This document shows positions 1 through 57,526 of a stretch of DNA of 64,000 nucleotides, piece after piece (the stretch's first letter is position 1; each line of letters begins with the position of its first letter). The translations under genes were made by a program, and so were the position numbers. The notes under the pieces are model-generated. The model was not told where the DNA came from. It was given only the letters and a program-made list of their open reading frames with translations, and did no database searches. Source of the stretch: Bacillota bacterium (GTDB taxonomy: Bacteria > Bacillota > SHA-98 > Ch115); the NCBI GenBank assembly GCA_013178415.1, contig JABLXA010000002.1:248001-312000 (forward strand), in the 5' to 3' direction.

Positions 1-1080
1 CTCATATTTCTTGGCAGTACAGGGCATAAGTGATACCGAGAAGATCTTGGATGGATCGATCCCTGCCCTCCTGGCATAATACGTCTTCACCAGAGCCCCG
101 AACATTTGCTGCGGTGATTTGCATGTTGAGATGTGGGGAAGCAGGTCCGGGTAGAAGTGTTCCCCAAATTTGATCCAGCCCGGGCTGCAGGAAGTTATCA
201 TGGGGAGGACGCCCCCTCCCTTGAGGCGTCTCAGGAGTTCGTTGCCTTCCTCGATTATGGTGAGGTCCGCCGTGAAATCTGTGTCCATTACCCTGTCGAA
301 TCCAAGTCGTCGCAAGGCGCTGACCAGCTTTCCAGTCACGATCGTCCCCACCGGAAGGCCCATTTCTTCGCCAATACTCACTCGGATAGCCGGCGCAGTC
401 TGCACTACCACGTGCATGTCGGGGTCATTGAGGGCCCGAAACACCTTCTCAGTGTCATCACGTTCGGAGATCGCGCCCACAGGACAGGCATGGATACATT
501 GGCCGCATAGCGCGCATGCCACTTCATCTAATTCGGATTCATACGCGGGGACAACCAGGGTATCAACTCCACGATTTACGGGATATAGAACCCCTGCCGC
601 CTGGACATCATGGCACATGGATACACAGCGGCGGCACAATATGCATTTGTTAGGATCCCGGACGATCGCAGGGGTTGATTCGTCCTTTGGCAGGCTGCGG
701 AGCTTCCTTTCAAACCTTACCTCGCGGATCTGCAATCTCTCAGCCAACTCCTGGAGCTCGCACACCTGATTTCGTATACATTGCAGGCAATCCTGTGGAT
801 GACGGGCTAATAAGAGCTCGAGGGTCACCCGCCTGGCTTGCCTTACCAATGGCGTGTTGGTGCGGACCGACATTCCTTCTGAGACAGGATATGCGCATGA
901 CGGCTGGAGGAGCTTTTGCCCGTCGATCTCAACGACACAAATTCTGCAAACAGCGCGTGCCTCCAGGTCGGGATGGTGGCACAGGGTTGGGATCTCGATG
1001 CCAATGGTCTTGGCTGCGTCAAGGATGGTCGTCCCCTCAGGGACGGTGACCTTCTGTCCGTCTATAGTCAAATTGACCAC
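1..1080 (-). CDS. hndD: [FeFe] hydrogenase catalytic subunit, HndD/HydA type (3' end outside window)
   Basis: This is the catalytic subunit of a cytoplasmic NAD(P)-linked, probably electron-bifurcating, [FeFe] hydrogenase. 360 residues are visible; the rest lies left of base 1. The N-terminus has a [2Fe-2S] ferredoxin-like domain (Cys33, 44, 47), then a His/Cys cluster region and two [4Fe-4S] motifs. H-cluster motif 1 reads TSCSPGW (296-302) and motif 2 MPCTAKKYE ends at the window edge. The second Cys of the usual TSCCPxW is Ser, unlike the paralogue at 55385-57511. I chose the GTG at 1080 because AAGGGAG lies 8 nt upstream; an in-frame GTG at 1089 is the alternative. It is the last visible gene of the hndB-A-C-D operon, 52 nt after hndC. 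Confidence 0.93.
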   Translation of the reverse strand, partial: MVNLTIDGQKVTVPEGTTILDAAKTIGIEIPTLCHHPDLEARAVCRICVVEIDGQKLLQPSCAYPVSEGMSVRTNTPLVRQARRVTLELLLARHPQDCLQCIRNQVCELQELAERLQIREVRFERKLRSLPKDESTPAIVRDPNKCILCRRCVSMCHDVQAAGVLYPVNRGVDTLVVPAYESELDEVACALCGQCIHACPVGAISERDDTEKVFRALNDPDMHVVVQTAPAIRVSIGEEMGLPVGTIVTGKLVSALRRLGFDRVMDTDFTADLTIIEEGNELLRRLKGGGVLPMITSCSPGWIKFGEHFYPDLLPHISTCKSPQQMFGALVKTYYARRAGIDPSKIFSVSLMPCTAKKYE

Positions 1081-1132
1081 TTGCGTCACTCCCTTTTGCT
1101 GTGGATTCTCAATACCCGGGAGCCCGGGGCCG

Positions 1133-2761
1133 CTAGACCGAATGTGTTCCTATCAAACATGCCTTCTTGTTGGTGATATGGTCGCGAATCTCATCGCCAT
1201 AATGTCTCAACATGGTGATGATAGAAAGGGGCGCCGCCTGGCCGAGGCCGCAAAGGCTTGTGACCTGCATAACCTGACAGATCTCATGTATAAGATCCAG
1301 ATCTTGAAGTCTGCCTTTTCCTTCGGCGATCTTTGTCACGATGTCGTAGAGCCTGTCTACGCCCTCACGGCAGGGCGCACATTTTCCACATGATTCATGC
1401 TTGAAGAATTTCATGAAGCAGCAGGCTATGTCAATGATGGGATGGCTGTCATCGATTATGAGAAGCGCCCCGGACCCTAAGGCGGATCCAGCCTTCGCCA
1501 AAGAAACATAATCCATTGGGGTATCCAGGAGAGCTTCAGGCAGGCATCCACCTGATGTTCCGCCTGTCTGGGCCATTTTGAATTGCCTGCCTCTGGGTAT
1601 TCCCCCGCCGACTTCGTAGATTATCTGCCTCAATGTGATGCCCATCGGGACTTCGATGAGCCCCTTGTTATTGATATCTCCTGTCAATGTGAATACCTTG
1701 GTGCCCGGACATTCGGCAGTGCCGATGCTGCGAAACCATTCAGGGCCGAAAAGGATGATCGGAGGAACATTGGCCAGAGTCTCCACATTGTTGACCACCG
1801 TGGGTTTGCCCCATAGGCCCACAACGCCAGGATAGGGAGGTTTGATCCTTGGTTCTCCCCTGTCGCCTTCCATCGATTCGATCAGAGCCGTTTCCTCACC
1901 ACATACATATGCCCCGGCGCCGATCCGCACTTCCACATCAAATCTGAAACCAGATCCAAATAGATTTTCGCCCAAAAGCCCGTATTTTCTCGCCTGCTCA
2001 ACGGCATTTCGCAGCCTCTGGATAGAGAGCGCGTATTCTCCTCTTATGTAAATGAAACCTTTGTCCGCCCCTACTGCATACCCTGCTATTGCCATGCCTT
2101 CCAAGATGCTATGGGGATCACCTTCCAGTATGAGACGATCTTTGAATGTGCCCGGTTCGCCCTCATCTGCATTGCAGACTATATACTTTTGACCTTTTCC
2201 GGCACGAGCGGTAAATCCCCACTTCACACCTGTCGGAAAGCCAGCCCCACCCCTTCCCAGAAGGCCTGACTTTTTAACAACCTCTAGGACGCCATCAGGA
2301 GTCATCTGTGTGACGCACTGGGCAAGGGCCCTATAACCGTCCCTCGCAATATACTCCTCGATTGAATCAGGATCGATCACACCACAGTTTCTAAGGACCA
2401 CACGTTTCTGTAGCTCTACATGGGGAGGCTCCTTCAAGGAGCTGACGCCCTTCGATGGCGCCTCATGAGTCATGATCCGGTTCTCAACAGGTCGTCCCTT
2501 GAAAAGGTGCTCTTCCACTATGAGAGGGACATCCGCCACTTTGACTTGCCCATAGGTTATGCCCTCAGGATAGACCACGATGATGGGTCCCATATCGCAG
2601 GGACCGAGGCAACCAGTCTCCACTACACGAATCTCATCCTGCAGGCCGAATCGTTCTATCTCCGCAATGAGGGCATCTCTGACAGCCTTGCACCCCCCCA
2701 AGACGCACGGCGTGCCTCCACAAACCAGGACATGCGAACGATAAAACTTCAACTTCTGCAC
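1133..2761 (-). CDS. hndC: NADH-binding hydrogenase subunit, HndC/NuoF type
   Basis: This is the flavoprotein subunit (542 aa) that oxidises or reduces NAD(P)(H) and passes electrons to HndD. Domains in order: an N-terminal thioredoxin-like [2Fe-2S] domain (Cys14, 19, 24, 51, 55), a NuoF FMN/NADH domain with GRGGAGFPTG around 169-178, an SLBB region, and the NuoF [4Fe-4S] motif ESCGKCAPCREG (456-467) with a fourth Cys near 504. It stops soon after. It therefore lacks the C-terminal two-[4Fe-4S] ferredoxin module present in the paralogue at 57527-59503. It lies between hndA and hndD. Confidence 0.95.
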   Translation of the reverse strand: MQKLKFYRSHVLVCGGTPCVLGGCKAVRDALIAEIERFGLQDEIRVVETGCLGPCDMGPIIVVYPEGITYGQVKVADVPLIVEEHLFKGRPVENRIMTHEAPSKGVSSLKEPPHVELQKRVVLRNCGVIDPDSIEEYIARDGYRALAQCVTQMTPDGVLEVVKKSGLLGRGGAGFPTGVKWGFTARAGKGQKYIVCNADEGEPGTFKDRLILEGDPHSILEGMAIAGYAVGADKGFIYIRGEYALSIQRLRNAVEQARKYGLLGENLFGSGFRFDVEVRIGAGAYVCGEETALIESMEGDRGEPRIKPPYPGVVGLWGKPTVVNNVETLANVPPIILFGPEWFRSIGTAECPGTKVFTLTGDINNKGLIEVPMGITLRQIIYEVGGGIPRGRQFKMAQTGGTSGGCLPEALLDTPMDYVSLAKAGSALGSGALLIIDDSHPIIDIACCFMKFFKHESCGKCAPCREGVDRLYDIVTKIAEGKGRLQDLDLIHEICQVMQVTSLCGLGQAAPLSIITMLRHYGDEIRDHITNKKACLIGTHSV

Positions 2762-2853
2762 CTCCTTTTGTTCATGCCGTTCTTGACTCTACTCAGGCAA
2801 CCAGCCTGCTGGTTTTCATTGTGCAGTCATAATATCCGATCTGGCACCGGCGA

Positions 2854-3348
2854 TTACCGATACTCACTTAGAACATGAAGAACTCTCTCGGGGGTGAGGT
2901 TACCGTAGACAACATCGTCAATCATGATGGCAGGGGCTACCCCGCAGGTTCCAAGGCAACTGGTGAACTTCAGAGAAAACTTCCCGTCAGATGTCGTCTC
3001 ACCAATTTTTATTCCTAGCTCTGTCTCGAGCGTCCTCAGGATATCCATAGCGCCCAGGACATGGCATGGGGCGCTTTCACAAACCCAGATGATGTGTTCA
3101 CCCTCAGGCTTGACTCGGAACATGGTATAGAAGGTGGCCACTCCATAGACCTTGCTGAGAGGGATGCCCAGGATCTCCGCTATTGCGGCGGCGGCGGATT
3201 CCGAAATGTAGCCATATTCTCTTTGGACATCATAAAGAGCGGGAATGAGGGCATCAGGCGCGCCCCGGTATCTTTCCAGAGCCATGAAGATATGTTCATC
3301 ATCTCTTCCCTGATCATGCAGGGGAAACTCCCGTTTGGACCCTTGCAT
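2854..3348 (-). CDS. hndA: Hydrogenase [2Fe-2S] subunit, HndA/NuoE type
   Basis: This NuoE-like thioredoxin-fold subunit (164 aa) carries a [2Fe-2S] cluster and links the flavoprotein HndC to the hydrogenase. The four ligands are Cys90, Cys95, Cys131 and Cys135 (CESAPC and SCLGTC contexts). The N-terminal half is the helical NuoE bundle. I start it at the ATG at 3348, which has AAAGGAGGA eight bases upstream; reading open to 3378 would add ten residues with no better ribosome site. It is the second gene of the structural operon, followed after 92 nt by hndC. Confidence 0.94.
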   Translation of the reverse strand: MQGSKREFPLHDQGRDDEHIFMALERYRGAPDALIPALYDVQREYGYISESAAAAIAEILGIPLSKVYGVATFYTMFRVKPEGEHIIWVCESAPCHVLGAMDILRTLETELGIKIGETTSDGKFSLKFTSCLGTCGVAPAIMIDDVVYGNLTPERVLHVLSEYR

Positions 3349-3476
3349 CACAGACTCCTCCTTTGCACGTGATTGCATAGAACCGGCCGGCAGAAGGCTC
3401 TCTCAGGCGTATCCGGGATAGATCAATGATTAGTCGTCTCATGGGAAGATTAAGACAAAGGAATAAGACCGCTGAT

Positions 3477-3839
3477 CTATGGGGTAGAAATCACCCACTC
3501 ACCGATGATACGCCCGTTTACCACATGGTTTGCTATGATCTGGCGAGCCCTTTCCCCTGTTACACGACCATATGTAACCTTGGGTTGACCAACCCTGATG
3601 ATATCTATTATTGGTTCCTGTTCGCACAGCCCGATGCAGCCGGTTTGGGTCACGACTACGTCCTGGAGATTCCTCTTGGCCAGTTCATCCAGGATCGCGG
3701 CAAGAGTCTCGCGGGCACCTGCGGCTATCCCACATGTCCCCATTCCGACTACGATCTTTACTGTCTCTTTCCCCTCCCTTAATCTAGTCATTGCTTGTGC
3801 TTCTTTTTTGATACGTTCTAACTCCTCTAGCGACTTCAC
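3477..3839 (-). CDS. hndB: Thioredoxin-like ferredoxin, HndB type
   Basis: A small protein (120 aa) of the HndB family, found in NADP-reducing hydrogenase operons of Desulfovibrio and Clostridia. A lysine/glutamate-rich N-terminal helix (KSLEELERIKKEA) is followed by a thioredoxin-like domain with Cys36, Cys68 and Cys72 (GTCGIAAGARE and GCIGLC motifs). Only three cysteines are visible, so cluster ligation is not certain. The GTG at 3839 is preferred because GGGAGGTG lies about 8 nt upstream and the family starts at this KSLEEL segment. It is the first gene after promoter 4013-4041 and palindrome 3957-3976. Confidence 0.88.
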   Translation of the reverse strand: MKSLEELERIKKEAQAMTRLREGKETVKIVVGMGTCGIAAGARETLAAILDELAKRNLQDVVVTQTGCIGLCEQEPIIDIIRVGQPKVTYGRVTGERARQIIANHVVNGRIIGEWVISTP

Positions 3840-3956
3840 TTCAGAGCACCTCCCGCTTTCTCCAATCCCCACGATTTACGCCTGAGACGCCGTATACTGC
3901 CTGGTGCGAGATTTCAGATCAATAGCTTGCCATCCAAAACCATCCAAGCCCTAGAA

Positions 3957-3976
3957 TTCGTTCCTTTTGTTACGAA
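3957..3976. promoter_or_regulatory. Palindromic operator candidate upstream of hndB
   Basis: The 20 bases TTCGTTCCTTTTGTTACGAA form an inverted repeat with perfect TTCGT/ACGAA ends. It lies about 30-50 nt downstream of the start expected from promoter 4013-4041. A palindrome with the same ends and length lies at 63413-63432, in front of hydrogenase locus 2. Rex is encoded beside locus 2 and Rex sites are palindromes of similar size (classically TTGTGA-N6-TCACAA). A Rex or other redox-repressor site is therefore my inference; the match to the classical Rex consensus is only partial. Confidence 0.55.
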
Positions 3977-4012
3977 CTTCGGCAAAAAACCGCACGTGGC
4001 ACGCCTGAAGAA

Positions 4013-4041
4013 ATAATATCACGATATATCGCCAGTTTCAA
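4013..4041 (-). promoter_or_regulatory. Sigma-A-type promoter for hndB-A-C-D
   Basis: On the minus strand TTGAAA (4041-4036), a 17-nt spacer and TATTAT (4018-4013) match the vegetative consensus at 5/6 and 5/6. The expected start is near 4006, giving a leader of about 165 nt before hndB that includes the palindrome at 3957-3976. It lies just beyond the stop of the RseC-like gene, so the structural hydrogenase genes can be transcribed apart from the regulatory genes upstream. Confidence 0.6.
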
Positions 4042-4068
4042 GGATTTCTCGCAAGTTTTGGGGATCCG

Positions 4069-4503
4069 TCATGCTCCCGAATTTGCGTTAATGATCTCAA
4101 CCACTCTAGGCTTGGTCCCTCTCCGGGAAATGGCTTTATCATATAGATGCACTATGCCATATGATCCGACAAGGAACACAACTCCCAAGACCGCAGATAA
4201 AGTCTGTGAATTTGCTTCAAGACCTGCGAAAGGGGCGATGGCGTCTCCCACGAAGAAACCGACAAACATGAAGATGAGAGGCACCATATATGCAATGAAG
4301 GCAGCAGCTAGAACATTCCTTCCTTCCATCTCCACCGTCACTATATCGCCAACAGATGCCCGCGCTGCATTGTATGCCTCGATGGAGCTTGCCCCCCTTC
4401 TTCCAACCTCACAAAGCTGACATCTCCCGCAAGCCGTCCTGCGTTCTATCTCAACCAGCGCGATATTTCCATCAACCTTGACAACCCTACCCATTTCCTG
4501 CAT
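4069..4503 (-). CDS. RseC/MucC-like membrane protein (SoxR-reducing system family)
   Basis: A protein of 144 aa. An N-terminal soluble part has a Cys cluster (Cys25, 28, 31; CGRCQLC), as in RseC/RsxC-associated proteins. Two membrane segments follow at about 64-87 and 101-121, then a short basic tail. The family takes part in redox or envelope-stress control and often lies near Rnf or hydrogenase genes. The ATG at 4503 is preferred because AGGAGGA lies 8 nt upstream. The gene overlaps the end of the HATPase gene by 17 nt, so the two are co-translated. Its role here is likely to be electron transfer or signalling for the hydrogenase locus, but that is inferred. Confidence 0.75.
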   Translation of the reverse strand: MQEMGRVVKVDGNIALVEIERRTACGRCQLCEVGRRGASSIEAYNAARASVGDIVTVEMEGRNVLAAAFIAYMVPLIFMFVGFFVGDAIAPFAGLEANSQTLSAVLGVVFLVGSYGIVHLYDKAISRRGTKPRVVEIINANSGA

Positions 4504-5092
4504 CTTGATGTTCCTCCTGATACATGTGAGCAATCCCCTCTTCTATCATTTCCCTTACAGCGCACAGAACTCTCGGGTTCGACACAGGCACATTCTCAAG
4601 TAGCCTGACAAGCGCATCTGAATCGAAGATGAACTTCCGGTATTCATCGCCTGCACATCCCGACCTGCCAGGCGACGCCACAAGTATATGCTCGTATCTT
4701 ACCCTTAGTCCGGGGTTGCACGCCAATAGCGCCACAATGGTGGAAGCCATGTCACCAAGTGGCGCCCTATCAATGTGACTGAGCCTGAAGGTAGCGACGA
4801 CAACTGTGCCAGCCCCCAACCCGGACGAGATATCTAGGCGCCCATCCGAAGCCTCACACGCTGCAGCAAGAAGGGACAAGCCCAATCCTACTTTGCGGGT
4901 CTGTCGCGTGGTTACAAAAGGATTCTTGACCTTCACAAGGAGATCTGGAGGCATGCCCCGGCCATTGTCTTTGATGGTTATCGTCAACCTGTCTGATATG
5001 CGGTCTTCATGGACGGTCACCTCGATGTATGTCGCCCCTGCCTCCAGCGAATTTTGGGCGATGTCCAGCACATGCAAGGACAGCTCACGCAA
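4487..5092 (-). CDS. HATPase_c (histidine-kinase-like ATPase) protein
   Basis: A protein of 201 aa made almost entirely of a GHKL ATP-binding domain: N-box near residues 9-20 (DIAQNSLEAGA), G1 box DNGRGM near 42-47 and a glycine-rich GLGLSLL near 69-75. There is no dimerisation/phosphoacceptor histidine domain and no membrane segment. It is therefore not a complete sensor kinase; it may act as an anti-sigma-type or partner kinase. It overlaps the PHP gene upstream by 8 nt and the RseC-like gene downstream by 17 nt. Similar stand-alone ATPases accompany [FeFe] hydrogenase clusters in Clostridia (my recollection). Confidence 0.8.
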   Translation of the reverse strand: MRELSLHVLDIAQNSLEAGATYIEVTVHEDRISDRLTITIKDNGRGMPPDLLVKVKNPFVTTRQTRKVGLGLSLLAAACEASDGRLDISSGLGAGTVVVATFRLSHIDRAPLGDMASTIVALLACNPGLRVRYEHILVASPGRSGCAGDEYRKFIFDSDALVRLLENVPVSNPRVLCAVREMIEEGIAHMYQEEHQDAGNG

Positions 5093-5831
5093 GAGAATGT
5101 CCCCTCTCTCTGATGAGAGCCTCTTTTAAGCCCTCAAGAGAACGCTCCCTGATCTCAAGAGTCGTGAAACCGCGGCCGATGTCGACCAGCCTGTGAGCAT
5201 CTGACGATATAACGATGGGGAACCGCGCTATCTCCGGAAATTTCTGAGTGGCCTCTTTTACAGACGTTCGGGGGGATACCTCGACGGCAAAGACTCGCGC
5301 CTCCGGGGGAATGAAACCGAGAGTCCTTATCACACTGAATGCTGGCCTGTCAATGTGGGACGGGATGGCGATTCCCCCATATTCCGAAATGACGTCACAG
5401 ACCCCCTCAAACGAAAGGCCGGTGGAAGCCAGGAGCAATCGGTCGCACTTTCCAACAATGGTATCATGGTCGTCCAACAGCAGCTGCTGTCCGAAGAATT
5501 CCTCGCAATTGCGGTCAGGGGGGAGAGCTGAATATATGACATTCTGAAAAGCCAGGACATCCCACAAATCATGAAAAAGACCCAAGATATGCACTTCCTC
5601 GATCGTTTGGACCTCCATGCCAGGAATCACCCATAGTCCCCTCGCCACGCCTGCAGCCATCACAGCTGATACATTTTCAGCGGAATTATGATCTGTTATG
5701 GCTATACAGCCCAATCTCCTGCTTATGGCGGCCTCGACGATCCTGGCCGGCGTCATCTCATCCTCTGCGCAAGGTGACAGCGCTGTATGGATGTGGAGAT
5801 CTGCAGTAATAGGAGAATATCCCGCACTCAT
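5085..5831 (-). CDS. PHP-domain metal-dependent phosphoesterase (TrpH/YciV-like)
   Basis: A protein of 248 aa with the PHP motifs in order: DLHIHT near residue 11, an ITDHN motif near 45, a PGMEV metal-ligand segment near 70, an SHIDRP segment near 160 and a late SSDAH motif. These residues bind the tri-metal centre of PHP phosphoesterases (nucleotide or oligonucleotide substrates in known members). The substrate here is unknown. It sits between a DRTGG gene and the HATPase gene in the regulatory half of hydrogenase locus 1, so a nucleotide-signal role is possible. Confidence 0.85.
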   Translation of the reverse strand: MSAGYSPITADLHIHTALSPCAEDEMTPARIVEAAISRRLGCIAITDHNSAENVSAVMAAGVARGLWVIPGMEVQTIEEVHILGLFHDLWDVLAFQNVIYSALPPDRNCEEFFGQQLLLDDHDTIVGKCDRLLLASTGLSFEGVCDVISEYGGIAIPSHIDRPAFSVIRTLGFIPPEARVFAVEVSPRTSVKEATQKFPEIARFPIVISSDAHRLVDIGRGFTTLEIRERSLEGLKEALIRERGHSLA

Positions 5832-5845
5832 CGTTTCCCCGGCCG

Positions 5846-6196
5846 CTAGCTTCTCTGGCCGCCCCTTATCCCAAGCTGATAGAGCCTCCCCACCACCTCA
5901 AATGTGGAAAGATCAGAGAGAAGAACGGGAATGCCCTCAGATTCCGCTCTCTTTATAGTATCACTTGCGGGTTTGATTCCTTCTGTTATCACCACGCATG
6001 CGGCATCTATCACGAGAGCCACAGCCACAACATTCTGATGAGCCTGGCTCGTGACCCAGATGGTGCCCTCAAGAGCATGAGCCATCACATCGCTCAAGAG
6101 ATCCGACGCGTAGCCCCATTTGATTTCCCGCCCCAACCCCGACCTACCAGCTGCCACTTCAAGGTCGAGGGCCTTGATCACCTCATTTACTGTCAC
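5846..6196 (-). CDS. DRTGG-domain protein
   Basis: A protein of 116 aa consisting of one DRTGG domain, the small ligand-binding module also found in CBS-DRTGG pyrophosphatases and phosphotransacetylase. Related to the gene at 8125-8487: both have a conserved DLLSDV segment and a C-terminal GIPVLLS/GIPLLR strand. I start it at GTG 6196, where GGGGGAG lies 5 nt upstream; the longer open frame runs into the hydrogenase-like gene before it and has no sequence resemblance to the family. It lies between the HydS-like gene and the PHP gene. Confidence 0.82.
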   Translation of the reverse strand: MTVNEVIKALDLEVAAGRSGLGREIKWGYASDLLSDVMAHALEGTIWVTSQAHQNVVAVALVIDAACVVITEGIKPASDTIKRAESEGIPVLLSDLSTFEVVGRLYQLGIRGGQRS

Positions 6197-6239
6197 AACC
6201 ACTCCCCCGTTCAGAAACGCAAAATGGCCATTTCCTGCG

Positions 6240-7643
6240 CTATTTCTTGCCAATAGCGGAAGGGTCCTTTTGAGCCAAATGAAAAAGCTCTTCCGCCAGA
6301 GCTTTGATTTGTTCACGCAGCTTGAATACGCAGTCCGTTTCCACTGCAAGTCCCTGCACGATATCTTCGGCCAGGGCACGACAATTCGGGGACCCGCAGG
6401 AGCCGCAGTCCAACCCTGGCAAGCTCTCAAGGACCTGCTCCATGCGCTCCATCTTCGCGATGGCTCTCGCCAAATCCTCATCCAATTTGAATGCGGGCTG
6501 AGGCACTAAAGGCGCTCCATTGAAATACCCTTGCCGGTAGAGTTCGTGTATCTCCCTCCCAACCGTCTCAGGCAGAGGGAAATAATCATCATGAAGATAT
6601 CCGCCGTTATCCTTCGTTTCATCTCCCCCATACGGCCTATCATCTTTGCGTCCAACGCTCGAGGCCAGCTGCTCCAGAGCCACCCGCCCCAAAAAAGGAT
6701 TACGGACCATGAGAGCTCCGCCGACGCATCCACCAACGCAGGCCTGCGCCTCGATAAAGTCAAGCCTGTCCAACTTCCCGAGCTCCATCTCCTCCAGCAC
6801 CGCTATCACATTGTGAATCCCGTCAACAACAAGAGAATTCTTAAGGGCTACCGCCCGATTCTCTCCGCCGGAACTCCCCCATCCAAGGCCGAAAGATGAG
6901 GCTGATGTATATTGGATACCAGGATTGTTCATATAATCCGAATTCCTTTTGATCTCAGAATAAATGGCACTTGCAGCGATGGCGCCGCTTATGTCATTTA
7001 TTCCGATGCTCAAAAGATCCCTGACCCAGGTCATTTTGGCAGGGCAAGGAGTAATGAAGAATGTTCCGACATCCTCCGGGGCAAGATGTAGCTCAGCTAC
7101 AGCTTTTTTCCGCGCTAATTTTCCCGCTGCCCTGGCCGGTGCATCCACCGGAACGATCCGGTCGAGAAGGCTCGGGAATCTTACCTGGATCAGCCTCACA
7201 ACAGCGGGGCATGCAGGGGAGATAAAAGGTCGCCCCCCAGGATGCTCCTTCACATAGACCCTCGTGACATATGACATTATGTCCGCTGCCCGAGCTACAT
7301 CAAACACATCATCAAAGCCCATCCGCAGAAGAGCGCCCAGGATCTTCTCCGGTATATGATCTTTATCTTTGCCAATCTCGTAGAATTGAGAATAGAAGGA
7401 TGGAGCAGGCATTGCAATAGAATATTTGAAACCTCTGATAGAATCAAGGTTATCCGTGATTGTCGCTTTCGCGTGGTTGTCGCAGGTCCTGACGCACTCG
7501 CCGCAATCGGTGCACCTGTCAGCATTTATCCGGGCCTTCCCCTCCCGGACGCGAATAGCCTCGGTAGGGCATCTCTTTATGCAGTTTGTGCATCCCCGGC
7601 ACTTCTCCTCTATGAGATAAACCGAGTGAAACCGCGAAGGCAT
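6240..7643 (-). CDS. HydS-type sensory [FeFe]-hydrogenase-like protein
   Basis: A protein of 467 aa. Two [4Fe-4S] motifs (Cys15, 18, 21, 25 and Cys44, 47, 50, 54) precede an H-cluster domain. Motif 1 reads SPACPAVV (Cys145), motif 2 TPCPAK (Cys200) and motif 3 QACVGGCVGG (Cys302, Cys306). The four ligands of the [4Fe-4S]H/2Fe site are kept, but the proton-relay Cys is Ala144. A FeS four-Cys motif (CGSCGSPNC) lies near 415-425. Loss of the proton-relay Cys is typical of sensory rather than catalytic enzymes. The start at 7643 has CGGAGGA upstream. No PAS domain is present, unlike the relative at 61277-63103. Confidence 0.85.
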   Translation of the reverse strand: MPSRFHSVYLIEEKCRGCTNCIKRCPTEAIRVREGKARINADRCTDCGECVRTCDNHAKATITDNLDSIRGFKYSIAMPAPSFYSQFYEIGKDKDHIPEKILGALLRMGFDDVFDVARAADIMSYVTRVYVKEHPGGRPFISPACPAVVRLIQVRFPSLLDRIVPVDAPARAAGKLARKKAVAELHLAPEDVGTFFITPCPAKMTWVRDLLSIGINDISGAIAASAIYSEIKRNSDYMNNPGIQYTSASSFGLGWGSSGGENRAVALKNSLVVDGIHNVIAVLEEMELGKLDRLDFIEAQACVGGCVGGALMVRNPFLGRVALEQLASSVGRKDDRPYGGDETKDNGGYLHDDYFPLPETVGREIHELYRQGYFNGAPLVPQPAFKLDEDLARAIAKMERMEQVLESLPGLDCGSCGSPNCRALAEDIVQGLAVETDCVFKLREQIKALAEELFHLAQKDPSAIGKK

Positions 7644-7663
7644 GACAGAATCCTCCGTGTGCC

Positions 7664-8128
7664 TCAATAATGGATACGGGCTATAACCTCGGTCCCCTTC
7701 CCTACCTCAGACTCGATCAAGAGCTCATCGGAGAACTTCTTCATATTCGGCAAACCCATCCCTGCCCCGAACCCCATCTCCCTGATTTGTTCAGAGGCAG
7801 TAGAATATCCTTCCTGCATAGCGAGGTTTATATCCCTGATCCCGGGACCTTCATCCCTGGCGATTATCTCTATCTGGTCGGGGGTCACCCTAAGCATGAG
7901 ATTGCCCGCGACAGCATGGATTATTATATTCATCTCTGCCTCATATGCAACGATGGCAGCCCTTCTCGTGATATCCGGGTCTATGCCTATCTGTTTCAGG
8001 GCGCGTTTCATCCTGGTCGCAGCCTCGCCCCCGGACGCGAAATCACCGCCCTGCACCTTATAAGACAATTCCAACAGTGGCTGCCGGCAAGTATCCAGTA
8101 TCCTCCCCCCTGAAGACAAACCCGTCAT
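7664..8128 (-). CDS. RsbW-like anti-sigma/serine-kinase-type ATPase
   Basis: A protein of 154 aa with a GHKL fold of the anti-sigma-factor kinase type: N-box EAEMNIIIHA near residues 63-72, a DEGPGI G1 box near 92-97 and GAGMGLPNM near 120. Such proteins bind sigma factors or anti-anti-sigma partners and switch on phosphorylation. I start it at the ATG at 8128, which overlaps the TGA of the upstream DRTGG gene (ATGA). A later start just before the conserved ELSYKV segment is possible. The gene directly precedes the HydS-like gene. Confidence 0.82.
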   Translation of the reverse strand: MTGLSSGGRILDTCRQPLLELSYKVQGGDFASGGEAATRMKRALKQIGIDPDITRRAAIVAYEAEMNIIIHAVAGNLMLRVTPDQIEIIARDEGPGIRDINLAMQEGYSTASEQIREMGFGAGMGLPNMKKFSDELLIESEVGKGTEVIARIHY

Positions 8129-8487
8129 GCGCAATGTCCATGAAGGCCAGCCTTGAACAGAAGACCGCATGATTCAAACAGCGGGTAGTTCGTTCTCAAG
8201 AGAGGAATCCCTCGCTCCTTAGCCATTTCGATGACCTCATCGGGCGGCCTTTTCCCTCTAACGAATACCACAGCTACCAGATCGTTCATCTCTGCAGTGC
8301 GAATCACCTGAGGATTTGTAAGCCCGGTAAGGAGCATGGTCTTTCGCTCAGCAAAGGCTAGTACATCGCTGAGCAGATCGCACCCGCAACCGCGTGGCAC
8401 GTCTATAGAAGCCAAATCCCCCTCACAGGTCAGGACCTCTGCATTTAGGATATTCTTAACCTCCAGGAGAGTCACAGCTCTCACCAC
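8125..8487 (-). CDS. DRTGG-domain protein
   Basis: A protein of 120 aa with a single DRTGG-type domain, paralogous to 5846-6196. A GCGCDLLSDV segment lies near residues 33-42 and a GIPLLRTNY strand near the end. A second start one codon in (GTG) is equally possible. It is the first gene of the hydrogenase-associated regulatory run and overlaps the RsbW-like gene by four bases. The ligand is unknown; in related proteins the domain binds nucleotides or regulates partner domains. Confidence 0.82.
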   Translation of the reverse strand: MVRAVTLLEVKNILNAEVLTCEGDLASIDVPRGCGCDLLSDVLAFAERKTMLLTGLTNPQVIRTAEMNDLVAVVFVRGKRPPDEVIEMAKERGIPLLRTNYPLFESCGLLFKAGLHGHCA

Positions 8488-8492
8488 CGGCC

Positions 8493-9023
8493 CTATTTTG
8501 CTACAAAGGCCTCGTAACCAGCATCTTTTAGTTGTTTCGCCAAGGCCTGCGCATTTTCCTCCTTCGAGAAAGCCCCCACCTGCACCTTGAATGGCGCTTC
8601 ACTCGTTACATATACCTGATACCCCTCAGATTTCAAAGTCTCTGACAATCTCTCTGCATTTGCCCTTTCCTGAAATGCGCCGACCTGCACCCGATAGAGG
8701 GTTACGGAATCAGGGAGGTTCGAATTGGGACTCTGCGGGCCCTCCTGTACCTCAGGCTGCGCAACGGTCTGGGAGGTATCCGTCTTTTTGCCTATCTGCT
8801 TGCCCTGCTCTTTGGCCTGTCCGTTTGTTATGGCAGAAGTCGAGGTGGTGGGCATAGGAGACTGAGTTGTGGCCACTGACTCCTTGGGCTGGGGCTTCAC
8901 AAGGGTGTTCAACGCATATTCTCCCAGGAGATAGCCGAGGCCTATGGCTATAGCGCCAAAGATCACAAGGCTGACAACGAGCAAAAGGCCTTCGCCACGA
9001 CGTCCATCTTCGGTTCTTGGCAT
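8493..9023 (-). CDS. SPOR-domain membrane-anchored protein
   Basis: A protein of 176 aa: short cytoplasmic N-terminus, one membrane segment at about 13-35, a Gln/Ser/Thr/Pro-rich linker (about 45-105) and a C-terminal SPOR domain (about 107-174) with two related VQVGAF repeats. SPOR domains bind denuded peptidoglycan glycans at division sites or in the cortex. It follows the folC fusion gene after 68 nt and ends 5 nt before the first DRTGG gene. Promoters were not resolved on this side, so co-transcription is likely but unproved. Confidence 0.87.
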   Translation of the reverse strand: MPRTEDGRRGEGLLLVVSLVIFGAIAIGLGYLLGEYALNTLVKPQPKESVATTQSPMPTTSTSAITNGQAKEQGKQIGKKTDTSQTVAQPEVQEGPQSPNSNLPDSVTLYRVQVGAFQERANAERLSETLKSEGYQVYVTSEAPFKVQVGAFSKEENAQALAKQLKDAGYEAFVAK

Positions 9024-9091: not shown

Positions 9092-11107
9092 TTATCCTTC
9101 CCAGGGCGGAAGCATAAAACGATCGAGGAGGAATACGGGAAGGCCTTCGATCTCATCTCCGACGATTCTTGCAAGATCCATTCCGCAGCATACAGCCTTG
9201 ACCGGAATCCCAAGCCTGGTGCCGACTTTTTTCGCTACCTCGACGCCCTTTACGATATCACCATATGATGTATCTCCGGAAAGATGAGTATTACTTATGA
9301 TCCCGGATACCCGGAGCCCGCTCGAGAGCTCTATTTCTCTGATCATCTTTTCCGCAGCGTCAGCATCCCTCGTGAAAGGTCGATTTACATTCAAGACCGC
9401 TACCATCTCGTAATCAGTGCGCTCGAATCTATCGCGAAATCGCGCGAGTCCCCGCGCTCCGGACGGATCTCCGCCCACATCAAAGACCGCAAATAGGGTA
9501 TCATTATCAAAAATGGAATAAATGCCCTGAGATAGGGCGGGAAGATCCGCAAAGTCTGCCCCTTCTCTTGAAGAAATGACCCGGATACCCTGACTCTCAA
9601 GAAGAGCTTTCAAATCCCGTGATCTGAAATATGGGTTTACAAAGTCAAGATCGATGAGAGCCACATCTTCACCCCTGGATGACAGCATGAGAGAATAATT
9701 GATAGCGAATTCTGTCTTGCCACTCCCAAAGGCCCCTGTCACCACCAGAATTCTTTTCCTCGAAATAGGAACTTCGTCTGTCGGCCTGAAAATCGGGTAT
9801 ACTTCCCCTACGAGATAAAGTGAGCCTGTGATGAAAAGCATGTCGCCTGGCGCCGACAGCTCCATTCCTCTCCTGACTGCGGCAGCGGCATCATCAATAG
9901 CTTCTGCCTGAATCCCTTCTTCTTCGAACCAAGACTGGATCTGCGCAGGAGCATAGCCGCCCACTCTGCTGGTCCTAGCCATAGTACATATTGCATAATC
10001 AACGCTCTGTGAGAGCCTGCCCACTAGCTTTTTGCCAGGCTTATCCCTGGAGATGCCGATGACCACCCGCACTTTCCCCGTAAAATCTTTTGAGTCTGTA
10101 GCCTCGTCCAGGGTCTCACAGAGCCTGTTGATGCCATCAAGGTTATGCGCACCATCCAGGATGAAGTAAGGATTCCTCGAGACGATCTCAAGCCTCCCAG
10201 GCCACCTCGCAGAAGCAAGGCCCTCCCTTATTGCATCATCGCCTATCTTTATGCCCTGCTGCTCCAATGCCTCGATCGCAGCCACTGCCGTCGCGCAATT
10301 CTCAACCTGATGGAACCCCAGAAAGGGGACGCGAATGCTCTGGTATTGACGCCTGCCGGAAAGATCGCACACTTTTCCCTCCAAGAACCCATCCACCATC
10401 TCATTGGCAGTTGTAGGTTGAACTGAGAATTTGAAATCTCTCCCAACCAGGATGAGATTTGAGCCTCTCTCATGGCACGTCCTTTCAATGACTTCCAAGG
10501 CCTCCATGCTCTGGGGGGATGAGATCACAGGTCTTCCAGGCTTTATGATTCCAGCTTTCTCCCTTGCTATCGCCGCGAGGGTGTTGCCTAAGATCTTTGT
10601 GTGATCGAAGGAGATATGCGTTATAACACTTATGAGAGGGTCCACTATGTTTGTCGCGTCAAATCTGCCGCCAAGACCCACCTCGATAACAGCCAGGTCA
10701 ACCTGCATCTGAGCGAAATAATAGAAAGCCAAGGCAGTTATGATCTCGAATTCTGTAGGGAGACCAGGATCGTTCCCCGACCTGAATTCCTCGATCAAGG
10801 ATTTGAACCTGGTCACAAGCTCGGCCAACCTCCACTTGGGGATCTCCTGACCATTGACCTTGATCCTCTCGGTAAAAGACACGAGATGGGGCGATGTATA
10901 GAGTCCTGTCCTATACCCTGCCTTTCTTAGAATGCTCTCTATCATGCTGCAGACTGAACCCTTGCCATTGGTTCCAGCTACGTGGACAACCTTGAGACCT
11001 CCGTGTGGGTTGCCCATCCTTTCAAGGAGCGCTTGGATACGCTCAAGTCCAGGCTTTACCCCGAACCTGCCAAAAGTATTGAGATAATCTATTGATTCTG
11101 GGTAATT
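9092..11107 (-). CDS. folC: Folylpolyglutamate synthase fused to a MinD/CobQ-like P-loop ATPase
   Basis: A single open frame of 671 aa. Residues about 1-435 are a complete FolC (folate/dihydrofolate polyglutamylation): ATP loop GTNGKGS near 45-51, a Mur-ligase central domain and the LDGAHNLDG motif, ending at the usual GSLYLVGEV terminus. From about 453 a second nucleotide-binding domain begins: Walker A GAFGSGKTE (458-466), IDLDFVNPYF and a Walker B-like FDVGGD near 543. It resembles stand-alone ATPases that I know as separate genes in Clostridia. No stop, ATG or clear ribosome site separates the halves; an in-frame GTG lies at the junction. The start ATG at 11107 has GGAGG five bases upstream. 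Confidence 0.88.
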   Translation of the reverse strand, partial: NYPESIDYLNTFGRFGVKPGLERIQALLERMGNPHGGLKVVHVAGTNGKGSVCSMIESILRKAGYRTGLYTSPHLVSFTERIKVNGQEIPKWRLAELVTRFKSLIEEFRSGNDPGLPTEFEIITALAFYYFAQMQVDLAVIEVGLGGRFDATNIVDPLISVITHISFDHTKILGNTLAAIAREKAGIIKPGRPVISSPQSMEALEVIERTCHERGSNLILVGRDFKFSVQPTTANEMVDGFLEGKVCDLSGRRQYQSIRVPFLGFHQVENCATAVAAIEALEQQGIKIGDDAIREGLASARWPGRLEIVSRNPYFILDGAHNLDGINRLCETLDEATDSKDFTGKVRVVIGISRDKPGKKLVGRLSQSVDYAICTMARTSRVGGYAPAQIQSWFEEEGIQAEAIDDAAAAVRRGMELSAPGDMLFITGSLYLVGEVYPIFRPTDEVPISRKRILVVTGAFGSGKTEFAINYSLMLSSRGEDVALIDLDFVNPYFRSRDLKALLESQGIRVISSREGADFADLPALSQGIYSIFDNDTLFAVFDVGGDPSGARGLARFRDRFERTDYEMVAVLNVNRPFTRDADAAEKMIREIELSSGLRVSGIISNTHLSGDTSYGDIVKGVEVAKKVGTRLGIPVKAVCCGMDLARIVGDEIEGLPVFLLDRFMLPPWEG

Positions 11108-11126
11108 CATTTCTTCCTCCACCATA

Positions 11127-11315: not shown

Positions 11316-12944
11316 CTATTCGACCCTCGGCCCGGCCTCCGCCACCCCGGGGGGCACATCCTTGAGATTCTTGAATGCTGCGGCGAAACGCGCGGCAAGC
11401 TCGCGCGCCTGTCTCTGATAGGCTTCGGCTGATGGCCAGACCTTCTCAGGATCAAGAATCTCTTCCGGCACGCCTGGGCAGCTCTCTGGAACCATAACAT
11501 TGAAGATCGGGTGGAGTGTAAATCTCACTTTTTCCGGCTCCAGGGCGCCCTCCAGAATTGCTCGGATCATGGCACGAGTATGTTTGATACCAATCCTTTT
11601 GCCGATCCCATAGGGACCGCCGGACCATCCGGTATTCACCAGATAGACGGAGACATTATGCTTTTCGATTCTCTCCCCCAGAAGTCTCGCATAGGCTATA
11701 GGCGGCAAGGGCAGAAATGGCGCTCCGAAGCAGGAGGAGAAGGTAGCTTGAGGTTCGGTGACCCCACGTTCGGTACCAGCCAGTTTGCTGGTATAGCCCA
11801 AAAGAAAGTGGTACATGCTTTGTTCACGCGAAAGCTTTGACACGGGCGGGATTACGCCAAATGCGTCAGCGGTAAGGAAGATCACCGTCCTCGGATGGCC
11901 TGCAAATCCGTTTTTCACCGCGCCGGGAATGAAATCGACAGGGTATGCAGCTCGCGTGTTTTCGGTGTATCTCTCGCTATTGAAATCAGGTTCACGCGTC
12001 ACCGGGTCTATATCAACATTTTCGAGAATTGCGCCAAATTTGATTGAATCCCAGATCTGTGGCTCATTCTCCCTGGATAGGCGAATGCATTTTGCGTAGC
12101 AACCGCCTTCAAGGTTGAAGACTCCATCATCGCACCATCCATGTTCATCATCGCCAATGAGGAATCTCATGGGATCAGCAGACAGGGTAGTCTTGCCCGT
12201 GCCGGAAAGGCCAAAGAACAAAGCCACATCTCCATCACATCCCACGTTGGCAGAACAATGCATGGAAAAGACACCCCGTTGTGGCAGGAGATAGTTCATC
12301 ACGGTGAATATCGATTTCTTTATCTCCCCTGCATAGCTTGTTCCGCCTATTATAACCAATTTCCTCTCGAAACTAATGATAACGAATGCCTCTGATCTTG
12401 TCCCGTCTGTCTTGGGAACGGCCTTGAAACCAGGAGCGCTGATCACGGTGAAATCAGGCTCAAAATAATCAAGTTCCTCAGGGGAAGGTCTGAGAAAGAG
12501 TTGATGAGCGAAAGCATTTTGCCAGGCGAACTCATTCACCACGCGAATAGGCATCCGGTATTTAGGATGAGCGCCTACGAAACCATCAAAAACAAATACC
12601 TCCCGCCTCTGAAGGTAAGATAACAGGCGATGGTAAAGCTCGTCGAATTTGGCCGGGTCAAAAGGGACATTAGTTGAACCCCAATTAATCTGATCATGTA
12701 TACCGGGTTCATCCACTATGAACTTATCACCGGGCGACCGCCCTGTATATTTTCCTCCCAGGATATTCAACGCGCCTGTTGATGTTAATATGCCTTCTCC
12801 TCGCGTGATGGCCTTCTCAATAAGAGCCGAAACGGCCATGTTGCGGTGAGCGTTCTTAAACCCGGGAACCATTGTAACCGGAAACTCCGCTTCTCCCTCA
12901 CGTCCGGGAACTTTTTCCAGTTGACTAGCCAGATTACCTGACAT
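11316..12944 (-). CDS. pckA: Phosphoenolpyruvate carboxykinase (ATP)
   Basis: A protein of 542 aa, the normal length for ATP-dependent PEPCK, which interconverts oxaloacetate + ATP and PEP + CO2 + ADP in the cytoplasm. The kinase-1a loop [10 protein letters not shown] lies near residue 241. The metal-binding [10 protein letters not shown] segment and the R-Y-T-E-N-T-R nucleotide region are intact. The start ATG at 12944 has GGGAGG nine bases upstream. The gene is preceded by a 400-nt leader holding a lysine riboswitch and a consensus promoter. In fermenting anaerobes the enzyme often runs in the carboxylating direction, supplying oxaloacetate; that direction is assumed here, not shown. Confidence 0.97.
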
Positions 12945-29327: not shown

Positions 29328-30374
29328 TTATTTGCTCAAAGAATTCTCGAGCTGCTCTATCCTCTTCTGAAGATCTGACACAATCTCCTCAAGAGCTCTC
29401 AGCGATTGGATCATGCGTGGCAGACGGCGAATGGCCACCTCACTCTCAAGTTCCTCTCTATGGGGTCTTGCGGGCGAGCCTGAAACCATCTCCTCTGGCG
29501 GCACCCTGCTGGTGACAAATGATCGAGCTGCTACTGTCGCGCCACCGCCGATCGATACATGATCAACAACTCCGACCTGACCAGCAAGAATGGCCCTCTC
29601 TTCTATAACGCAGCTCCCGCCAATGCCCGTCTGGCCCACAATGATCACATGAGGGCCAACTTTGACATTATGCCCTATTTGCACCAAATTATCTATCTTC
29701 GTGCCATCCTCGATGATGGTCGCTCCGATCGTGGCTCGATCTATGCACGCATTCGCGCCGATCTCAACGTCATTTCCTATAATTACAGTGCCGATCTGTG
29801 GGATCTTCTTGTTGATATTCCCATCCCGTACAAAACCGAATCCATCAGCGCCTATAACCGCCCCGGCGTGAATGATGGTCCTCTTACCGACCCGGACGCG
29901 TTCGCCGATACAGACATTTGGGAAGATGACAGTCCCATCGCCTATCACCACATCCCGCCCAATGTATGCGCCCGGGAATATAATGCAGCCAGCGCCAATG
30001 GTAGCGCCTGATTCTATAACTGCATATGCGCCTACACTAGCATCTTGGGCTATCTTCGCGCCCTCGCCAATATGAGCTGTAGGATCTATGCCGTGAGGGG
30101 CGGACAATGGGGGACGAAAATGGTCCAGAATGATAGCCATGGCAAGTCTGGGATTGTCCACTATAACAACTGGTTTGCCGGGAACGGAATACCCCCTTTT
30201 CAGGACCGCCGCAGCGGCCTGTGACCGGCTGGCAGCAAGAGCGTGATGGCGATCAAAGGCGAAAACAATGTCATGTGGCGTAGCTTCTTCTATCTCGCGC
30301 ACACCCTCGATGACGATATCAGGATCTCCTTCAATCTCCCCGTTTACGGCCCTTGCAATTTCGCCTAAGGTCAC
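29328..30374 (-). CDS. lpxD: UDP-3-O-acylglucosamine N-acyltransferase LpxD
   Basis: A protein of 348 aa that adds the N-linked acyl chain in the third step of lipid A synthesis. The N-terminal uridine-binding domain (about 1-100) is followed by a left-handed beta-helix of hexapeptide repeats (about 105-300), with the catalytic His in QIGHNVKVG near 232, and a C-terminal helical tail. The GTG start has AAGGAGG upstream. Its presence says the outer leaflet probably carries lipopolysaccharide-type lipid; no other lpx genes are in the window. Confidence 0.95.
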   Translation of the reverse strand: MTLGEIARAVNGEIEGDPDIVIEGVREIEEATPHDIVFAFDRHHALAASRSQAAAAVLKRGYSVPGKPVVIVDNPRLAMAIILDHFRPPLSAPHGIDPTAHIGEGAKIAQDASVGAYAVIESGATIGAGCIIFPGAYIGRDVVIGDGTVIFPNVCIGERVRVGKRTIIHAGAVIGADGFGFVRDGNINKKIPQIGTVIIGNDVEIGANACIDRATIGATIIEDGTKIDNLVQIGHNVKVGPHVIIVGQTGIGGSCVIEERAILAGQVGVVDHVSIGGGATVAARSFVTSRVPPEEMVSGSPARPHREELESEVAIRRLPRMIQSLRALEEIVSDLQKRIEQLENSLSK

Positions 30375-30449
30375 ATGGACCCCTCCTTGCTGAAAGGCTG
30401 AAAGCTCGCTACCCTGAAGGTCGGATGTTCAACTAGAAAGAACCGATCC

Positions 30450-31790
30450 TCAATTGCCCTGCCTCGTAGAACCCTCAGAGTTGAAATAATGACGGATGAA
30501 TTCGGATACCTCTGAACTAATATCCTGATATTGTTTCGACGCGTCTGCCATAAGCACCTCCTTGTCCCGCGGCGAGGCGATGGTGACTATCTCAAAGCCA
30601 TTGGCCTTGCCGTATATTCTGACCAGACTCTGTATATCCTTATGGATCTTTTCGAGAAGCGCATCTCTCTTTTCTAGCAAGGCCCTCTGGCGCATCTCAA
30701 ACTCCTCCTGCCGAGCCTGAAACTCCGCTCGCTTTTTCTCGATCCTGGTCTGCAGTTCCCCCATGAATTCATGCGATAGGCTGCCCACTTCGCTTTGAAG
30801 CCCTTTTGAAATGCTCCTCTTCCTGCTATCCTCTATGACTCCATAGCGGGATAAGAGACGGGCGCGTTCCTGCTCTACGGCAGATCTAGTCTCATCCACC
30901 AATTTGACTTTATATCGCATCAGTTCAATATCGGCTGCTGCCTGCCTTTCGTTTGCCTTTCTCGTGAACTCCTCTTCAAGAGCTTTTTTCTTTGCAGATA
31001 TCTTGTCGTTTATTTCCGTCTCCAGCCGCAGCAGCTCAGATTCGACCTTTTTCCTGTCCTCGGGTTTAAGATCAGCCAACTCCAATTTGAGCTGCAAATT
31101 AAGAGTCAAGGGAAGATATTCCTGCTGGATGGCCTTGACATAAGCATCCAACTCGTTGTTCATCTCGCCTCTTATCGTATATAGCTCGTCCTGGATTCCA
31201 GCCTCGATCGCTCTTGACTTCTCTTCCAGTTTTCCAGCGATGAGGTCCTGCAGATCGGCTTCAAACTGGCTGAGCAGATCCTGAATAATCGGATCATCCG
31301 CAGTCTGCTGTGTTTCCCCGCTCTGTCCCGTTGTTTCCGCGCTCTGCTCCTTTGCCGACCTGTCACTCTCGGGAAGGAAGCTATCTAAGAAACTCAGGAT
31401 CCCCTCATAGAACTTCTTGTTTTGATCGCTGAGCAACTGACTTCGATCGATGTAGTCTCTCCATTCTTCTTCCTCTGCTTCCATGACCTGGATGACATTT
31501 TGATACTGCGTCCACATGGGATGCAAGGAATAGAGAGCGTTTAGGTCGACCCAGCGAACCTTCTGAACACTGTCTTCAGTAGCCGCGCCACTTATGGGGA
31601 TGGGCGCGCCAATGGACATAGACAGCGCCAGAAGTATGGCGATCACCCATAGTACCTTCCGGGGTTTCAGCAGGCTGTACCAGTGCCTGAATAAACTATC
31701 ACATTGTCGAAGCCCCAGGGCGAAGACCCTGGGGCGTGAAAATCCATCTAGGGAGCAGTGAGATCCTCTTATTGAATCCGGCGCGTTCAC
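30450..31790 (-). CDS. Long coiled-coil OmpH/Skp-like envelope protein
   Basis: A protein of 446 aa. After a basic leader, a signal or anchor segment (about 48-68) precedes VRWVDLNALYSLHPMW, which resembles the VxxVDxxxVxxxHP start of mature OmpH/Skp. A long charged alpha-helical region (about 100-400) rich in Glu, Lys, Gln and Arg follows, with strong coiled-coil character. It is 2.5 times the length of the classical OmpH paralogue next to it. The 47 residues before the membrane segment are unusual, so the GTG at 31790 may not be the true start. A periplasmic holdase or spacer role is inferred. Confidence 0.72.
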   Translation of the reverse strand: MNAPDSIRGSHCSLDGFSRPRVFALGLRQCDSLFRHWYSLLKPRKVLWVIAILLALSMSIGAPIPISGAATEDSVQKVRWVDLNALYSLHPMWTQYQNVIQVMEAEEEEWRDYIDRSQLLSDQNKKFYEGILSFLDSFLPESDRSAKEQSAETTGQSGETQQTADDPIIQDLLSQFEADLQDLIAGKLEEKSRAIEAGIQDELYTIRGEMNNELDAYVKAIQQEYLPLTLNLQLKLELADLKPEDRKKVESELLRLETEINDKISAKKKALEEEFTRKANERQAAADIELMRYKVKLVDETRSAVEQERARLLSRYGVIEDSRKRSISKGLQSEVGSLSHEFMGELQTRIEKKRAEFQARQEEFEMRQRALLEKRDALLEKIHKDIQSLVRIYGKANGFEIVTIASPRDKEVLMADASKQYQDISSEVSEFIRHYFNSEGSTRQGN

Positions 31791-31862
31791 CTGCTTCCCA
31801 CCCCCTTTAGATTGGGCAAATCCAACTGCAGGCCAGATACCAATGAACCTTATCGCCGGTCA

Positions 31863-32396
31863 TCACTTCTTGCTGTTGGCTTCCAACTTCTTCAACACAG
31901 TATCTGTGACATCTTTTCCCCCATATAGGACGATTTCGCGTTTCAACACCACTTGCAGGTTCTGCTCCTTGGCTACGCTCGCTATGGCAGCGTCAAGTTT
32001 TGTCTCTATATTTTTAAGAACATCTGCCTTTTGCTTATCTAGCTGACTTTGATAATCCCCCTGGATTTTCTTGATTTTCGCGGCATATTCATTGCGCAGC
32101 TGGTCGATCTTCTCCTGATCCTGCATTCCCTTGACTTTCGTATTTAATTCATTTTGAAGCTTGGCCGCCTCAGAATTCAATTGCTCCTGCAGCCTGGCAA
32201 ATTCTTTCTCAAGGGAAGCGGAGGCATCCTTAAAATCCTTGTGCTGATTCATGATTCGCTGCACGTCAACGAATCCAATGTCACCGCCATTGGAAGCAGC
32301 CTTGAGTCCTCCTCCAATCCAGATCAACACTGCCCCTATCACAAGTATAGCCACTGGAACAAAAGCCCTGTAAATCCCCTTCGAAATCTTCATCAA
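31863..32396 (-). CDS. ompH: OmpH/Skp-family periplasmic chaperone
   Basis: A protein of 177 aa, normal for Skp/OmpH. It has a signal peptide or anchor (about 12-30), then IGFVDVQRIMNQHKDFKDA and a coiled-coil body rich in Lys, Gln and Glu, ending in ADTVLKKLEANSKK-type helices. Skp escorts unfolded outer-membrane proteins to BamA. AAAGGAGG lies 8 nt before the TTG at 32396 and 11 before the following ATG, so either may initiate. It lies 19 nt downstream of bamA. Confidence 0.9.
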   Translation of the reverse strand: MMKISKGIYRAFVPVAILVIGAVLIWIGGGLKAASNGGDIGFVDVQRIMNQHKDFKDASASLEKEFARLQEQLNSEAAKLQNELNTKVKGMQDQEKIDQLRNEYAAKIKKIQGDYQSQLDKQKADVLKNIETKLDAAIASVAKEQNLQVVLKREIVLYGGKDVTDTVLKKLEANSKK

Positions 32397-32415
32397 CCGA
32401 ATATCCTCCTTTGAT

Positions 32416-34155: not shown

Positions 34156-34339
34156 TTACTCCGCCTCCTTCACAGGTGGACACACGCTTCGCATCTATCA
34201 TGCGCTTGTGCCATAACTTACCTTTTCTTGTTTCCGCCGGTTCATAACAAGATACATCACACATATTCGCCTGAGAACCCGTGAATCCTTCCGAGTTACT
34301 AAGGCAATTAATTCCGTCATGGGAAGGTTGCTCCAATGG

Positions 34340-40369: not shown

Positions 40370-40443
40370 ATGAAAATCTCCACCCGGCTCCCCTGGCATA
40401 GACAAGAGGAGCTAAATCATCGAAAAATCCCTGCAAATGTTCA

Positions 40444-40449
40444 ATTATA
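40444..40449 (-). promoter_or_regulatory. -10 element candidate for the tamB-bamA operon
   Basis: On the minus strand TATAAT lies about 75 nt before the tamB ATG, in the 170-nt gap after the S55 gene. The -35 region is poor. An internal promoter here would let the outer-membrane genes be expressed apart from the upstream S55/phosphodiester glycosidase pair. Confidence 0.4.
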
Positions 40450-40539
40450 TAAATGAAATTCGACACTGAAGCGTGTCATTCCTTTAAAGAAGCCAGAAAG
40501 ATTGTTCTATGATCTCAGGTAATCAAAGGACAAGCTGGA

Positions 40540-44131: not shown

Positions 44132-44308
44132 ATCGGATCACGCCCGTTTAAATATACTCTACAATGATTTCGCCTGAAAGCGCGTAGCTCCTTTCTAGGA
44201 GATCAGAAATCAATAAATTTCTCTTGCCTGAATTATCCCATAATGCCTGTCATTACTTGATGATATCAAGGGCTGACGGGGTTAGGACGATTGGGGGAGG
44301 GGACCCTA

Positions 44309-44337
44309 CCCCGAAGATAGCGGCGCCCGCTTCGGGG
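44309..44337. repeat. Inverted repeat after the DUF1614 gene
   Basis: A perfect 8-bp stem CCCCGAAG/CTTCGGGG with a 13-nt GC-rich loop lies about 80 nt beyond the DUF1614 stop on the minus strand. There is no U-tract on that strand, so termination is uncertain. The rest of the 287-nt gap (44132-44418) shows nothing I can assign. Confidence 0.4.
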
Positions 44338-44418
44338 GATTTTCATCCTTCTGCTGGTGCTGCCGCGGCAGATATGTAGTGGAACCCCGAGACGGTATCG
44401 CCTACACCTCGGCCATTT

Positions 44419-45063: not shown

Positions 45064-45128
45064 ATTTCATCATCCTATCTGCGGAGATATAGTTCGACCC
45101 GTATTATCTTGATCTATCCAATGAGATT

Positions 45129-46151: not shown

Positions 46152-46187
46152 GAAGCGGTCCCTCCCGGCGTCTTTTTCCCTCCTGCC

Positions 46188-46505: not shown

Positions 46506-46569
46506 CGAGCCAGCCTCCCCGCATGGTATTTACTACATGTATATGCGGGGGGATGGCCGGTATTCCGCT

Positions 46570-47442: not shown

Positions 47443-47635
47443 ACTACCACCTCCATCCAAATCTTCCCCACATTTTGGATGATTATGCATCGGGAGCCTC
47501 AAAAACCATGAGCTTTCCAGCTAATGGGCCTATAACCACACAATTCCCTGAATTTGTAAGATTGGATCCGCAATCTGGCCGCCGCATAGAGAAACCTGTC
47601 AGGCATGCGCCGGTGCCATCCTAAGGATATCCATC

Positions 47636-57511: not shown

Positions 57512-57526
57512 TTCATTCTTCCCTCC

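Follow-up and report, generated by a model that had tools for sequence, protein, structure and literature searches.

A FolC fusion with a P-loop ATPase whose relatives are associated with VorB-type oxidoreductase operons

HypB, CooC and MeaB are chaperone NTPases and offer functional analogues for the ATPase described here, which is found as the second half of a FolC protein encoded in a window of 64,000 nucleotides (the whole stretch of DNA analysed). Like other FolC proteins (TIGR01499), the bifunctional dihydrofolate/folylpolyglutamate synthases, the protein has a complete set of signature motifs, and its gene is the sole folC copy found in the genome, but the fusion adds a C-terminal extension of ~230 residues with a second P-loop domain. 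The likeness of this domain to ParA/MinD/Mrp proteins (CbiA, PF01656; PF10609; NF041136) lies in the N-terminal P-loop region, where the matches are sub-threshold; it differs in having GAFGSGKT rather than KGGxGKT, and lacks the CxxC of the Mrp/NUBPL carriers. With SIMIBI accessory NTPases such as the ATPase-type HypB (5auq) it shares the modelled fold and an operon association with a cofactor-bearing enzyme, but it has no conserved metal-binding cysteines and its partner is different. Standalone ATPases of the same family are at home in a VorB-type operon (NF005507), alongside ptb-buk and a leucine dehydrogenase gene, whereas here the ATPase sits on FolC instead. In the titles, abstracts and hit counts surveyed, in which subscription journals are thinly covered, we found no description of a FolC-ATPase fusion or of a link between this ATPase and VorB, nor an experiment on a protein of the ATPase family.

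Architecture of the fused protein

The frame of the fusion is open on the minus strand and closed on the plus strand. The features of the locus, in window coordinates, are as follows.

8493..9023, minus strand: SPOR-domain protein (PF05036), 68 nt downstream of the fusion
9092..11110, minus strand: folC::ATPase fusion coding sequence, 672 amino acids, stop TAA at 9094-9092
9098..9760, minus strand: P-loop ATPase domain, residues ~450-670, from a family whose other members stand upstream of korDABC
9455..9481, minus strand: Walker B-like motif DVGGDPSGA (alignment A1)
9617..9652, minus strand: DxDxxNPYFRSR, conserved second acidic/switch motif (alignment A1)
9713..9736, minus strand: Walker A motif GAFGSGKT followed by a conserved E, in invariant or nearly invariant columns (alignment A1)
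9761..9793, minus strand: linker (RPTDEVPISRKR region), placed from the full-length model and the junction length
9794..11110, minus strand: FolC domain (bifunctional dihydrofolate/folylpolyglutamate synthase), complete (TIGR01499)
11316..12944, minus strand: ATP-type PEP carboxykinase (PF01293, 737 bits), upstream of the fusion

The likely start is the ATG at 11110, preceded by GGAGGAAGAA, which contains a Shine-Dalgarno-like GGAGG; an in-frame ATG upstream at 11125 is a less likely alternative. A sequence-only reading of this DNA had described one frame running through a complete FolC into a second P-loop domain. This is confirmed, with both domains intact and each carrying its own P-loop (GTNGKGS in FolC; GAFGSGKT, together with the Walker B-like motif, in the ATPase). 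The FolC half gives a full-length TIGR01499 (folC) match over residues 21-438 of the fusion (397.6 bits, cut-off 162.65), and the GTNGKGS P-loop and the SPH, REKAGI and DGAHN motifs are all present. Most motif residues are invariant among the fused members, including G-T-N-G-K-G-S, S-P-H, E-K and D-G-A-H-N. The FolC half most likely performs ordinary FolC chemistry.

No Pfam or NCBIfam model matches the ATPase domain above its cut-off, and the CbiA, ParA and MrpORP models match weakly, below theirs; standalone members of the family likewise have no NCBIfam match above cut-off. These standalone homologues are 31-42% identical to the ATPase domain in the window, which has all 18 invariant columns of alignment A1. 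The family motifs in that alignment are GxxGSGKTE, DxDxxNPYFRxR, D(V/L)GGDxxGA and NxxRP, and the alignment contains no conserved cysteine that could bind a metal or an Fe-S cluster. The domain is modelled with a pLDDT of 88 and a SIMIBI-like fold, and its best Foldseek matches are ATPase-type HypB (5auq) and SRP GTPases, a moderate similarity (E 1e-7, TM ~0.55). The earlier description of the domain as MinD/CobQ-like therefore holds for the fold class and fails on the rest: the deviant Walker A lysine (KGGxGKT) is absent in all members, which have GxxGxGKT instead, and none of the CbiA, ParA and MinD models matches above its threshold. An Mrp/NUBPL-type Fe-S carrier was also considered and rejected, as there is no C-terminal CxxC and NF041136 scores 22.5 bits against a cut-off of 450. 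The nucleotide used by the domain is presumably ATP.

In the full-length model, built from nine sequences, two folded domains are joined by a linker that is probably flexible (pLDDT <50 at residues 442-448). GSLYLVG is separated from the Walker A glycine by 23 residues in 14 of 14 fusion genomes of the class, and the junction is shorter, at 16 residues, in a fusion from another class (G027). The gene could be one in form only, with internal initiation or proteolysis giving two proteins, and most g5 members of the sister family f3 do have a junction ATG behind GGGGAA or GGAGAA, at which a second protein could start. The corresponding codon is ATT in the window, however, other fusion genomes have GCG, GCG, AAG and CTG there, and we found no conserved internal start codon at the junction among the fusion genomes compared. 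The two junction GTGs proposed earlier as internal starts, at 9745 and 9742, both fall inside the ATPase's first beta strand; initiation there would remove half of this strand and Arg452, which is invariant among the fused proteins, and we judge it unlikely in the window. Overall, production of two separate proteins seems unlikely.

The SPOR-domain gene also comes next after the fusion in the f3 genomes and in G027, based on gene maps. The upstream slot held here by the PEP carboxykinase is occupied in most relatives by valS, with or without nth. Elsewhere in the window, on the minus strand, genes for Omp85/BamA, TamB and an LpxD-like protein lie near those for SpoIID and for peptidases of the S55 (SpoIVB-type) and M23 families (29331-48649), a set that fits, as expected, a two-membraned and possibly spore-forming Bacillota-like lineage. 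Many NuoE/NuoF-like, [FeFe]-hydrogenase-like, anti-sigma-factor-like and PHP genes lie at 1-8500 and 55385-63118, also on the minus strand, and part of this set follows the fusion in f3 genomes as well.

Distribution and history of the fusion

The uninterrupted fusion occurs in 14 of the 17 genomes of the class, namely the window's own genome and all 13 sampled genomes of f3, and G027 carries it outside the class. FolC is retained in the other three genomes of the class (G001 of the same family, G002 and G003 of the same order), in which the ATPase is not detectable. In pairwise comparisons of fusion members, FolC has a dN/dS of 0.11-0.19 and the ATPase one of 0.09-0.21, so both fused domains are under purifying selection. 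The earlier reading had allowed for a lost or missed stop codon or a frameshift, and such a sequencing error or recent stop loss in one genome draws what plausibility it has from related orders, where a single stop divides the two separate genes. The open junction recurs at identical length in the assemblies of 13 other species, and this, together with purifying selection in both domains and the lack of a conserved internal start codon, leaves the error a negligible likelihood; the fusion is genuine and cannot be put down to chance, a lost stop or faulty assembly.

Separate ATPase genes beside folC, which the earlier reading had proposed to look for, exist in the neighbouring order (f38, f63, f73), where nine genomes have both genes side by side. 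Among 398 sampled genomes of the phylum, several others have folC and the ATPase gene in tandem, separated by one or two stops and by a spacer that ranges from a few bases to several tens. Some lineages (L032, L086, L087, L090, L143, L172) have folC, the ATPase gene and korDABC consecutively.

Phylogenetic analysis of FolC places the fused class, the unfused folC-ATPase-SPOR group (8 of 9), the folC-ATPase-kor group and G001-G003 in one clade (SH-aLRT 96). The backbone of the ATPase tree is without resolution; within the class the fused ATPases cluster at support 90, which suggests one fusion event within the class. As the FolC of G027 falls outside the main FolC clade and its linker is shorter, its fusion is possibly a second event or a transfer. 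A single clade including the G027 fusion is not rejected by the AU test (p 0.85). A constraint grouping all folC-linked ATPases is not rejected either, and its likelihood exceeds that of the free quick search, which means that the free search was incomplete. These trees are consistent with, but do not prove, a single origin of the folC-ATPase link.

FolC has also merged with its upstream neighbour. In G210, from the unfused group, nth and folC form one frame of 699 residues (L089:7256-9355, minus strand), with 68% identity to Nth (endonuclease III) over 213 residues followed by FolC, and nth and folC are separate neighbours in G160 and G234 (L088 and L084, compared with L089). The FolC-Nth fusion points to neighbour merging around folC. 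That FolC merges with unrelated neighbours on both sides argues against taking a fusion at this position as in itself a sign of a functional link, and the covalent join to the ATPase probably results from gene order, which by itself would not couple folate metabolism to the oxidoreductase.

The ATPase family and the VorB-type operon

Standalone ATPases of the family mostly lie directly upstream of a ferredoxin-like korD, followed by vorB, vorA and vorC, and are often preceded by ptb, buk and a leucine dehydrogenase gene. The 80 best ATPase loci from a scan of the whole collection comprise seven with the folC-SPOR arrangement, two at a contig edge, 69 with kor/vor genes and two without. Kor/vor genes are thus directly downstream in 69 of the 71 informative loci, a proportion that applies to these closest relatives of the window's ATPase and not to every distant member. 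In 67 of the 80, the ATPase is with kor alone and without folC. The kor-linked loci include records from Thermoanaerobacter, Clostridium, Atribacterota and Zixibacteria. Across 61 relatives, 44 genomes have both the ATPase and a full-length KorA/VorB, none has the ATPase alone, eight have KorA/VorB alone and nine have neither (Fisher 1.4e-6, a value that overstates independence, as the genomes are related).

A more divergent ATPase subfamily (L061-L067, L050) lies, in many relatives, between dnaX-ybaB-recR-DUF2508-bofA-like genes (named by eye) and korABC. Two loci from Anaerovorax-like and Brocadiia-like records (L161, L173) encode ATPase homologues with no kor genes nearby.

In the window's genome (G000), korDABC lies near C2:87254, ~170 kb from the fusion on their common contig, and the alpha subunit there is VorB (NF005507, 566 bits, cut-off 399). 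No ATPase gene lies beside this operon (L188), and the assignment of the fused ATPase to the family rests on sequence, not on position. Similarly, six f3 genomes retain buk-korDABC, and the ATPase is gone from its usual slot. In G001-G003, G047 and G052 the korDABC operon is present and the ATPase absent; the ATPase is thus dispensable for korDABC, and a strict requirement of the oxidoreductase for it is ruled out.

Role of the fused ATPase

We favour, with a probability of roughly 0.6, a merger of adjacent genes in which the ATPase half serves the VorB-type oxidoreductase as an accessory factor and the join brings no coupling. Two co-directional neighbours would have merged, folC with a small gene for a SIMIBI-fold ATPase. 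On the simplest account, the ATPase gene would have settled behind folC, the kor genes would later have separated from it, and the two frames would have merged in the window's class; G001 and family f2 would have lost the ATPase. The most likely client of the ATPase half is the cell's KorD-VorB-VorA-VorC, a VorB-type 2-oxoacid:ferredoxin oxidoreductase, which it would help to assemble or activate in a nucleotide-dependent manner, in analogy to HypB, CooC and MeaB. Genomic context and fold are what make such an accessory NTPase role the most likely one for the family.

The ATPase may instead be a regulator that is merely co-transcribed with the oxidoreductase and has no part in its assembly or activation. 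Both the lack of conserved cysteines for metal or Fe-S binding and the occurrence of the oxidoreductase without the ATPase would fit this, but at least two divergent subfamilies repeatedly have the ATPase gene tightly placed as the first of the korDABC cluster, which argues against it, and we regard it as a tentative and rather doubtful alternative.

A folate- or C1-linked function, as first suggested for the fusion, is not borne out, since the genomic partner of the ATPase family is the VorB-type oxidoreductase. The maturation ATPase that the earlier reading offered as an example would be compatible with this partner. A functional coupling, with the ATPase regulating FolC or folate status regulating the oxidoreductase, could account for an adjacency of folC and ATPase that stays within one FolC clade (SH-aLRT 96) through several gene orders, and for the lineages with folC, ATPase and korDABC in a row. 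The persistence of this link over a large clade could reflect selection for co-expression, and to that extent counts against the merger that we favour. Against coupling stand the 80 best ATPase loci, most of which have kor without folC, the FolC of G001-G003 without an ATPase, the fusion of FolC with the unrelated Nth, and the low-confidence, probably flexible linker; we consider it quite improbable. More improbable still is the combined case, a dedicated activator of the VorB-type oxidoreductase whose fusion to FolC physically couples activation to folate or C1 status.

On the favoured reading, a merger without coupling, the fusion itself probably tells us little about folate, and it cautions that not every gene fusion is a functional link. 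It has nevertheless led to a P-loop ATPase family, without a Pfam or NCBIfam model above cut-off, that heads a VorB-type operon in many anaerobes. The VorB-type oxidoreductase degrades 2-oxoacids derived from amino acids, and the link between the ATPase and VorB makes the function of the family directly testable, as the genera that carry it include some with laboratory strains.
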